Positions 7,394 through 9,026 of a DNA stretch of 64,000 nucleotides are shown one piece after another. A model generated the notes under the pieces. The model saw only the letters and a list, made by a program, of their open reading frames with translations. It did no database searches and was not told the DNA's origin. This stretch comes from an uncultured Nitrospirota bacterium (GTDB lineage: Bacteria; CG2-30-53-67). The stretch is from assembly GCA_947259355.1 (NCBI GenBank), contig CAMYMF010000004.1:1-64000 (forward strand), given 5' to 3'. The first letter of the stretch is position 1, and each line of letters starts with the position of its first letter. The translations under genes were made by a program, and so were the position numbers.

Positions 7394-7428
7394 TTGACAT
7401 TGACACCCTGGCCGAATCAGCATTACCC
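7394..7428 (+). promoter_or_regulatory. Possible promoter for the structured leader
   Basis: Two back-to-back TTGACA hexamers (7394-7399 and 7400-7405) lie 15-17 nt before a weak -10 (CATTAC/ATTACC, 7421-7427). Transcription would begin just before the first structured RNA. The -35 is perfect but the -10 is poor, so activator dependence is possible. Confidence 0.35.
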
Positions 7429-7439
7429 TTTATCTAAGA

Positions 7440-7528
7440 CCACCGATAAAGGCAGCCCTGCTCGTGAGGGTAGGGTCGCAGAGTTGTGAGACCTTGGAAA
7501 CAAGGTCGGTCACAACCCTCCGAAGTGG
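7440..7528 (+). ncRNA. GEMM-like structured RNA, divergent (possible riboswitch)
   Basis: The order of parts copies a GEMM-I (cyclic dinucleotide) aptamer. AAGGC (7449-7453) is followed by a 7-bp hairpin (7457-7463/7468-7474) capped by a GTGA GNRA loop, then GTCGCAGAG (7475-7483), which aligns with the GEMM core GACGCAAAG. A long second hairpin follows: 7483-7489 pairs with 7510-7516, and 7490-7496 pairs perfectly with 7501-7507 around a GAAA loop. CCAC (7440-7443) can close with GTGG (7525-7528). Position 20 by Vc2 numbering is G and A47 is kept. The AAA after GGC is AGC, the usual tetraloop receptor is not evident, and the 3' ligand-pairing C is shifted by one nucleotide. It is a divergent GEMM relative or a look-alike; I cannot tell which. 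Confidence 0.5.
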
Positions 7529-7565
7529 GAAAGATAGAAGGCTCTCAAAGCCGCAGACCATTCTA

Positions 7566-7600
7566 CCCATCGTGCCTTTCATTGGCGTGATGGGTTTTTT
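7566..7600 (+). terminator. Intrinsic terminator after the first structured RNA
   Basis: An 11-bp stem (7566-7576 with 7584-7594; two G-T pairs), a 7-nt loop, then six T residues (7595-7600). CTCTCAA at 7542-7548 pairs perfectly with TTGAGAG at 7602-7608. This could extend or compete with the terminator and suggests a regulated leader. Confidence 0.8.
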
Positions 7601-7639
7601 GTTGAGAGGTGTCCAGATGTAACCTATTGAAAAATCTAT

Positions 7640-7740
7640 TGAATCCTTTGCTCAGAGCAAACCATGGGAAACCGTGGGACGCAGAGCTTCGGGACTAAAG
7701 AAGGCGGGAACAGACGGGTCCGGGCTGCTTCGGCAGTGCG
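7640..7740 (+). ncRNA. GEMM-I riboswitch, A20 variant (3',3'-cGAMP-type or c-di-GMP)
   Basis: Strong match to the GEMM-I aptamer. AGAGCAAACC (7654-7663) leads into a perfect 6-bp hairpin (7662-7667/7672-7677) with a GAAA tetraloop, the same length as in Vc2. GGACGCAGAGC (7677-7687) contains the base that stacks between the ligand bases (A47, at 7683). The second arm has CTAAAG (receptor-like, about 7695-7700) and closes with GTCCGGGCTGC, placing the ligand-pairing C92 at 7728. By Vc2 numbering position 20 is A (7656), not G. In published work G20A permits cGAMP recognition, and natural A20 (GEMM-Ib) riboswitches of Geobacter sense 3',3'-cGAMP. The ligand call is therefore inference from one base. 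A CTGC-TTCG-GCAG hairpin overlaps the 3' edge. Confidence 0.82.
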
Positions 7741-7785
7741 CAATCCCGCATGGATGATTGCCAGTGCTCGCCTTCGATGTTTGCC

Positions 7786-7822
7786 GGGCCGCCAGAGGGA
7801 AGTTCTTTTGGCGGTCCTTTTT
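7786..7822 (+). terminator. Expression-platform terminator of the GEMM-I riboswitch
   Basis: A 9-bp GC-rich stem (7786-7794 with 7809-7817) is followed by TTTTT (7818-7822). It ends 13 bp before the ATG of the surface protein, and the ribosome site GAGG (7825-7828) comes directly after the T-run. Control is thus likely by premature termination, with read-through when the ligand stabilises the aptamer. Confidence 0.8.
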
Positions 7823-7835
7823 GTGAGGTCATGTT

Positions 7836-9026
7836 ATGAAGGCGGAGAAATCAATAGACTGGTTCACCCAAGGCGTTCTTTTTCTATCCCTTGTAGTCTG
7901 CCTTGCAGCCAGTTCTGCAAGCGCATCGGTGACGATTGACTGGGGTGCCCCCACGACGAATGCCGACGGAACCCCATGCACGGACCTCGCCGGCTACAAG
8001 ATCTACTACGACACCGACGGCCCTGGGGGTCCCTACAATGGATCGGGCCTGCCTCAGGGGGACTCACCCATCACGGTGCCTCTGTCCGAGCTTGCCGATC
8101 CCGCAGCGCCGACCCTTACCCTGGTTGGCTTGGTCTCTGGCGCCACCTATTCCATGGTCGTGACGGCCTACGACACCAGTGGGAATGAAAGTGGCTATTC
8201 AAATGAACTCAATCCGACGGAGACAGAGACCGATTCCGATGATGACCGGCTTTCCGACCCGTTGGAAGCATCCTACGGTCTAGATCTGGCATCGAGCGAT
8301 TCCGATGCGGACGGTATCGGCGACCTTGCCGAGTGGGGCACGTCTGAGTTCCCCGCTGACACGGACTTCGACGGAGTCGTCGACGCGTTAGACACCGACT
8401 CGGACAATGACGGCACACCAGACCTGGATGAGGACAGTGTGGACTCGGATCTGGATGGTACGCCGGACCGGTTGGATGCGAAGACCGCGACCATGGCCAC
8501 GACCCACGGAAATATGTCGGTCGTTCTGAATCACATCTCCGGAAGTTTGGCACAGACCCGGTTCATCGCCACCGTCGCGTCGGGCAGCGGCCACCCGGAC
8601 GTGGAGTTTCCCTACGGCGGCGTCGAATACCAGATCACCGGATTGTCCGCGGGTGAAACGGTGCTCGTCACGATCATCATGGCAGACGTCCTGCCGGCGA
8701 ATGCAGAGTACTGGAAATATGACCCCGTCCACGGATTCCAAAAGATTGCGAGCCAGACAAGCGGCAGAGAGATCTCATTCAACCTGCGAGACGGCGGCGC
8801 TGGCGATGCCGACGGCTCGGCCAACGGCGTAATCGTCGATCCCGGCTATGTCGGGGTTCCCCTCCCGGCAAATCCGGTCACCTCGTCAAGCGGCGGTGGG
8901 GGCGGCGGCTGTGCTCTGGCGCGCGATTCCGGAGCGCTTCCCGATGTTTTCTTTTTTCTGTTTCCCCTAGTCCTCGTACTCATTCTCAAGAGCCGTTCCG
9001 AAAGAAGGAAGCCGGGCATAGGGTAG
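7836..9026 (+). CDS. Secreted FnIII/choice-of-anchor U protein with Gly-Cys C-terminal sorting tail
   Basis: A 396-residue exported protein. The signal peptide is about 1-30, and a fibronectin type III-like domain spans about 31-130 (YKIYYDTDG, SMVVTAYDTSGNESGYSNE). Acidic thrombospondin-3-like calcium repeats follow (about 135-210; DTDFDGVVDALDTDSDNDG). The choice-of-anchor U domain is about 220-335 (YWKYDPVHGF, NLRDGGAGDADGSANG, VIVDPG). The tail has a GGGGGGC motif near 347, a hydrophobic helix and a basic end (KSRSERR), as in MYXO/JDVT-CTERM-like sorting signals processed by intramembrane proteases. It is probably anchored to or shed from the cell surface. No sorting enzyme is in the window. 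It lies directly behind two structured RNAs and terminators and between 107-bp direct repeats, so it is a single-gene, second-messenger-controlled cargo. Confidence 0.85.
   Translation: MKAEKSIDWFTQGVLFLSLVVCLAASSASASVTIDWGAPTTNADGTPCTDLAGYKIYYDTDGPGGPYNGSGLPQGDSPITVPLSELADPAAPTLTLVGLVSGATYSMVVTAYDTSGNESGYSNELNPTETETDSDDDRLSDPLEASYGLDLASSDSDADGIGDLAEWGTSEFPADTDFDGVVDALDTDSDNDGTPDLDEDSVDSDLDGTPDRLDAKTATMATTHGNMSVVLNHISGSLAQTRFIATVASGSGHPDVEFPYGGVEYQITGLSAGETVLVTIIMADVLPANAEYWKYDPVHGFQKIASQTSGREISFNLRDGGAGDADGSANGVIVDPGYVGVPLPANPVTSSSGGGGGGCALARDSGALPDVFFFLFPLVLVLILKSRSERRKPGIG

Follow-up and report, generated by a model that had tools for sequence, protein, structure and literature searches.

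A divergent GEMM-I-like aptamer in tandem with an A20-type GEMM-I element: a possible two-signal gate ahead of a secreted protein gene in a Nitrospirota bacterium

Our analysis of a 64,000-nucleotide window from an uncultured Nitrospirota bacterium established that the leader of a gene for a secreted protein contains a real, conserved relative of the GEMM-I riboswitch, which goes unseen at the Rfam threshold and stands in a recurrent tandem. The first of the two RNAs, Element 1 (E1, 7440 to 7528; all features described here lie on the forward strand), is a divergent GEMM-I relative that most likely works like GEMM-I, rather than a member to be filed under Rfam family RF01051. The second, Element 2 (E2, 7646 to 7796), is a GEMM-I (c-di-GMP-I) element of the A20 (cGAMP) type. 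An initial annotation of the sequence had proposed two tandem GEMM-type RNAs, each with its own terminator, and this proposal was borne out by Rfam, by a covariance model of our own, by a terminator scan, and by the recurrence of the arrangement in related genomes. For the leader as a whole, we favor, with a probability of about 0.5, a serial two-riboswitch gate with the logic NOT c-di-GMP AND cGAMP. Closely related enzymes produce these two signals, which differ by one base, and a leader of this kind would bear on how cells separate or oppose them.

With respect to its identity, E1 could be aligned across the full RF01051 model (7441 to 7524) with 25.3 bits, an E value of 0.017 when 1.2 kb was searched with 4,227 Rfam families, which is below the gathering score of 35 bits; its homologues are likewise subthreshold. 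The homologues score 20.0 to 22.6 bits with c-di-GMP-I-GGC (RF03167), short of the gathering score of 59 bits, and assignment of E1 to another known RNA family was rejected, as no further Rfam family matched at E values up to 1. Our own model R1, built from E1 homologues with the window copy among them, places E1 exactly at 7440 to 7528 with 106.8 bits, limits identical to those originally annotated, and gives the eight full copies 97 to 107 bits. The predicted fold of E1 also beats shuffled sequences by 3.9 standard deviations. Rfam misses E1 because the tetraloop receptor of P3 is absent and P2 is longer, and since E1 neither reaches the score threshold nor carries the receptor, we call it a divergent relative. 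This case illustrates that GEMM-I relatives can fall under the Rfam threshold and thus escape standard annotation.

The architecture of E1 is that of a three-way junction, with P1 at 7440-7443/7525-7528, P2 at 7455-7463/7468-7476 closed by a GUGA loop, and P3 at 7483-7496/7501-7516. The core comprises G20 (7451), G21 (7452), C22 (7453), A47 (7480), and C92 (7520), position names that we take to be those of the Vc2 structure, mapped through the Rfam alignment. E1 retains G20, the pairs G21-C46 and C22-G45, C44, A47, and C92, and an unpaired GG (7508 to 7509) lies at the site of A82-G83 of GEMM-I. The junction, G20, A47, C92, C44, and an unpaired G are present in all eight aligned copies; the long-range pair between C44 and the unpaired G is invariant and hence without covariation support. 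P2 consists of one A, a G-U pair, eight further positions, and a GNRA loop, is 21 nucleotides long in every copy, and carries the loop GGAA except in the window copy, which has GUGA. P3, which is nearly invariant among the copies, forms 7 bp without the bulged A, followed by a conserved CCU:AGG at the site of the 11-nt receptor, and the CUAA/UAUG receptor is absent from each of the eight full copies. The CCU:AGG helix is placed where the GNRA loop of a P2 that is one layer longer could dock.

The comparative search for homologous leaders that had been suggested yielded eight full copies of E1 in four genomes of one family and a ninth truncated by a contig end, and E1 with its terminator recurs across three genera. 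A BLAST search with positions 7410 to 7610 returned strong copies within the same family only, four of them in genome G002. The full copies can be aligned from CCACCGAUAAAGGCAG through CCGAAGUGG, and 97% of the cells at the proposed pairs are standard pairs. A lack of covariance support, which the initial annotation had considered as a possible outcome for the first element, did not materialize: both sides had changed in eight pairs, compared with one to three in slid controls, counts that support a structure but are no probability, as the copies are related. Because all copies are related and come from one family, the independent evidence on E1 is limited. Outside the family, E1 was found neither when 84,980 species genomes were scanned with an exact pattern, which would miss diverged copies, nor by model R1 in 386 genomes. 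The best out-of-family R1 matches (33 to 40 bits) were all ordinary c-di-GMP-I aptamers, and CCGAUAAAGGCA and CCGAAG are common to E1 and ordinary c-di-GMP-I aptamers of other families.

We also observed short GEMM variants (L053, L058, L059, L062, and L065, as well as L008 in the window's own genome) that are nearest to c-di-GMP-I-GGC, yet below its cutoff. They have the flanks UCCACCGAUAAAGGC and GCCGAAGUGGA in common with E1, carry a GUGGAUAGG/CCUAUCCA antiterminator, and in at least three cases lie upstream of an oxidoreductase-like gene.

E1 is followed by intrinsic terminator 1 (7565 to 7600), whose stem (7565 to 7595) and U-run agree with the terminator annotated at 7566 to 7600. In the scan that lists it, shuffled sequences average 0.8 terminators per region. 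Its pair counts across copies show 96.9% paired, with two pairs changed on both sides, and it uses none of the E1 aptamer strands. A predicted antiterminator spans 7525 to 7570; in it, GUGGG (7525 to 7529) and UAGAA (7535 to 7539) pair with UUCUACCCAU (7561 to 7570), competing with P1 as well as with the 5' arm of terminator 1. This alternative pairing of the P1-closing strand (GUGG and the following bases) into the terminator arm is predicted in all eight full copies, and its strands covary between copies (GGUAAAA/UUUUACC, GUGGAA/UUCCAC, and AUGGU/ACCAU). The native duplexes are stronger than swapped ones, with 562 of 40,320 permutations performing as well. In a transcript that stops just short of the terminator hairpin, the antiterminator fold lies 2.8 to 5.7 kcal/mol below the P1 fold by approximate folding energies, a gap that ligand binding could plausibly pay. 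A second contact is suggested by UGCCUUU (7573 to 7579) in the arm and loop of terminator 1, which is complementary to AAAGGCA (7448 to 7454), the core segment containing G20 to C22; the complementarity of UGCCUU(U) to the core amounts to 6 to 9 bp in every copy tested and also appears in free folds. In the predicted folds of all E1 copies, P1 excludes the antiterminator and leaves the terminator free to form. With the antiterminator opposed to the closing helix and the terminator compatible with it, the platform of E1 is predicted to be an OFF switch.

The segment between the two switches contains a Shine-Dalgarno-like GAGAGG (7604 to 7609) and a start-stop ATGTAA (7617 to 7622), and a start-stop preceded by a Shine-Dalgarno-like stretch also occurs in the linkers of four other loci (L042, L043, L044, and L047), as ATGTAA in three and GTGTAA in one. 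At locus G002:C126, where E1 stands alone, the true gene start occupies the matching position. The start-stop may be a relic of a gene start that belonged to E1 or a ribosome-loading site.

E2 scores 53.6 bits with RF01051, so that the Rfam search suggested for the leader identified the second element above the cutoff and the first below it. The proposed GEMM-I match of E2 was thus upheld, whereas its proposed extent (7640 to 7740) was too short, taking in just the 5' half of the aptamer and a portion of a 68-nt insert in P3. This insert is predicted to fold as a hairpin of its own, and C92 and the P3 3' strand come after it, within the second terminator. The Rfam alignment places A20 at 7656, C44 at 7680, A47 at 7683, and C92 at 7792, and both alignments agree with the annotated G20 in the first element and A20 in the second. 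With A20 next to retained A47 and C92, E2 has the sequence features of GEMM-Ib, and its ligand is probably cGAMP. Intrinsic terminator 2 (7786 to 7822, with its stem at 7786 to 7817 and a U-run) was found by the scan, the folds, and the Rfam alignment where it had been annotated. Because C92 and the P3 3' strand form part of its 5' arm, the aptamer and the terminator are mutually exclusive, and the E2 platform is predicted to be an ON switch. A small hairpin, UUUGCU-CAG-AGCAAA (7647 to 7661), which would mask A20, G21, and C22 of E2, is kept in every A20 element seen.

The arrangement of two aptamers in one leader, each with its own terminator, recurs beyond the window: a GEMM-I element lies closely downstream of terminator 1 in eight of the nine E1 loci, one of these with the E1 cut by the contig end. 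At the ninth, G002:C126, a lone E1 with its own terminator precedes a single gene of the fn3/PKD type, and the next gene, a similar one, has an A20 element in front of it. Position 20 of E1 is G in all copies, together with A47 and C92, and the downstream GEMM-I has A20 at eight of the nine loci when G002:C126 is counted; the exception is the tandem G002:C144, with G20 in both elements. A20 elements also exist without E1. One of them (G001:C58) has the same TTATTGACATTGACA promoter motif, carries a different hairpin at the E1 site, and precedes a secreted metalloprotease-like gene. Tandems of ordinary-form GEMM-I were also seen in unrelated families (L170, L171, and L172).

Upstream of E1, we infer a promoter at 7400 to 7429, with TTGACA (7400 to 7405), an 18-nt spacer, and TACCCT (7424 to 7429). 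TTGACA begins 44 nt ahead of CGATAAAGG in seven of the eight E1 copies and 43 nt ahead in the other; the promoter call rests on this conserved spacing because a strict sigma-70 scan did not list the leader promoter. Given the conserved spacing, the RNA therefore probably starts near 7436, a few bases ahead of P1. Two alternative leader structures, an inverted repeat CCTTTATC/GATAAAGG (7428 to 7451) and an outer stem UUUAUCU/AGAUAGA in a fold of 7420 to 7545, were rejected because they are unconserved in homologues, lie within the inferred promoter, and are upstream of the inferred RNA start.

The regulated gene (7836 to 9026) encodes a 396-amino-acid secreted fn3-like protein with a choice-of-anchor U domain (NF041766, 94.8 bits) and a hydrophobic C-terminal tail; its fn3 match (E value of 2e-4) is under the Pfam cutoff. 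Across the loci, the downstream genes are mostly ones for surface proteins: they code for secreted proteins of the fn3, PKD, and Ig-like types and for a beta-helix protein, with one Fe-S/FAD oxidoreductase among them. At one locus in the window's own assembly (L043, G000:C19), the gene just upstream of E1 codes for a short membrane protein bearing an ACSGVRS motif, reminiscent of exosortases.

A possible source of cGAMP was found in five relatives (G001 to G005), each with one Hypr-type GGDEF protein that carries, after a GAF domain, serine at the position marking this type (NDRxGHxVGS), the signature described for Hypr enzymes (PMC6456294). For the one protein tested, the best PDB match was 6d9m, a construct of Geobacter metallireducens GacA, with GHLVGSQ in both. 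These GacA-like proteins are candidate cGAMP synthases. In the window's own assembly (G000, 89.7% complete), no Hypr GGDEF was found, and at this completeness a gap and an absence look the same. Two genomes of a neighboring family yielded no Hypr motif and no A20 element; the one GEMM-I detected in them has G20.

For both elements, ligand binding, ligand identity, and regulatory sign are what we infer, and it is solely the difference between G20 and A20 that suggests two different ligands acting on one gene. In our proposed model, transcription would start a few bases ahead of E1. When c-di-GMP is high, E1 would bind it, closing P1 and the core, so that the antiterminator (GUGG and the following bases with UUCUACCCAU, together with AAAGGCA/UGCCUUU) would be blocked, terminator 1 would fold, and the gene would be off. 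When c-di-GMP is low, the antiterminator would prevail and polymerase would proceed to E2. There, in the absence of cGAMP, the P3 strand and C92 would be taken up into terminator 2 as its 5' arm, and binding of cGAMP to the A20 aptamer would allow the gene to be read. A serial two-signal gate had been among the options first put forward and is the best supported of them; the opposite predicted polarity of its two members had not been foreseen. What counts against the gate is the altered lower P2 of E1, a part of the aptamer reported to affect which ligand is bound (PMC9262584), its score below the Rfam cutoff, the lack of a detected Hypr GGDEF in G000, and the G20/G20 tandem at G002:C144. In addition, the ligand cannot be read from G20 by itself, because a change at the equivalent position in Cd1 had little effect on binding (PMC9262584).

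One alternative concerns the identity of the E1 ligand. E1 may be a GEMM-I-fold OFF switch of a new variant class that responds to another cyclic or linear dinucleotide, with E2 still a cGAMP ON switch. The missing 11-nt receptor and bulged A of P3, the different lower P2, and scores under both the c-di-GMP-I and c-di-GMP-I-GGC cutoffs would all fit. Nevertheless, G20, A47, and C92 are as in c-di-GMP binders in all copies, and the CCGAUAAAGGCA and CCGAAG segments also occur in ordinary c-di-GMP-I aptamers of other families, so that a different ligand seems unlikely to us. Both elements might instead respond to the same dinucleotide, or promiscuously, producing a concentration window (off at high and on at intermediate levels) or a steep response. 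Same-class GEMM-I tandems are indeed common, with 347 c-di-GMP-I doublets in a 2022 catalogue (PMC9481103), Geobacter has tandem GEMM-Ib pairs (PMC6456294), and G002:C144 has G20 in both elements. The consistent difference between G20 and A20 at the other tandem loci speaks against one signal, as does the predicted wiring: with E1 OFF and E2 ON, the opposite polarity misfits a simple steep ON switch and argues against the steep one-signal switch that had been suggested. We regard a single signal as less likely still.

The sign of E1 is a further point at which the gate could fail, since it is derived from helices only and from approximate energies, and the full-length minimum fold still retains the antiterminator in two copies. 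Terminator 1 might be opened by the ligand, or a kinetic or protein-dependent route might apply, resulting in some other gate logic. The exclusion of the antiterminator, and not the terminator, by P1 in all copies, which matches the Cd1 OFF switch (PMC9262584), makes such a departure improbable. By far the least credible explanation is that E1 is a decayed, nonfunctional duplicate of E2: its subthreshold Rfam score would be expected, yet the core is nearly invariant over three genera, compensatory changes are present, the P2 hairpin is fixed at 21 nt with a GNRA loop, and the copy at G002:C126 stands alone ahead of a gene and has a terminator of its own. We rejected decay on the basis of this conservation and the stand-alone copy.

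The gate of NOT c-di-GMP AND cGAMP, if true, would make competition between the two signals directly testable on one RNA, ahead of adhesin-like and other genes. We tentatively suggest, at somewhat less than even odds, that E1 founds a lineage-specific subclass of GEMM-I, in which a helical receptor stands in for the 11-nt receptor and a terminator arm blocks the ligand core, and that it forms with the A20 GEMM-I the first natural opposite-sign c-di-GMP/cGAMP gate on one transcript.

Among known systems, E1 is most readily compared with RF01051 and with Cd1 of Clostridioides difficile, which is turned OFF by c-di-GMP (PMC9262584). It shares their core bases and the layout of their junction, and its predicted P1-antiterminator-terminator wiring is like that of Cd1 (PMC9262584), but it scores below the cutoff, has a P2 that is extended by one layer and founded on a G-U pair, lacks the bulged A of P3, and substitutes the CCU:AGG helix for the 11-nt receptor. 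E2 resembles the 3',3'-cGAMP (GEMM-Ib) riboswitches of Geobacter, such as that of pilM, which is turned ON by cGAMP (PMC9262584), in A20 and in a terminator built in part from the 3' strand of the aptamer; it differs in the 68-nt insert of P3 and in following a same-fold switch of opposite predicted sign. In a Geobacter GEMM-Ib, changing A20 to G shifts selectivity from cGAMP to c-di-GMP (PMC6456294). The tandems of Geobacter sulfurreducens, such as GSU2885, likewise place two serial GEMM-I elements before one gene or operon; both of their members carry the GEMM-Ib label and follow cGAMP up and down (PMC6456294), whereas the pair in the window combines G20 with A20 and opposite predicted wiring. 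The 2022 tandem-riboswitch catalogue also contains one AdoCbl/c-AMP-GMP gate, and a c-di-GMP plus cGAMP gate is absent from its Table 2 (PMC9481103), our literature coverage lying largely outside subscription sources. The AdoCbl/c-AMP-GMP gate, an example of the NOT A AND B type, is also OFF and then ON in one leader, with a terminator for each switch (PMC9481103), but in the window both sensors share a single fold and probably sense two competing cyclic dinucleotides.
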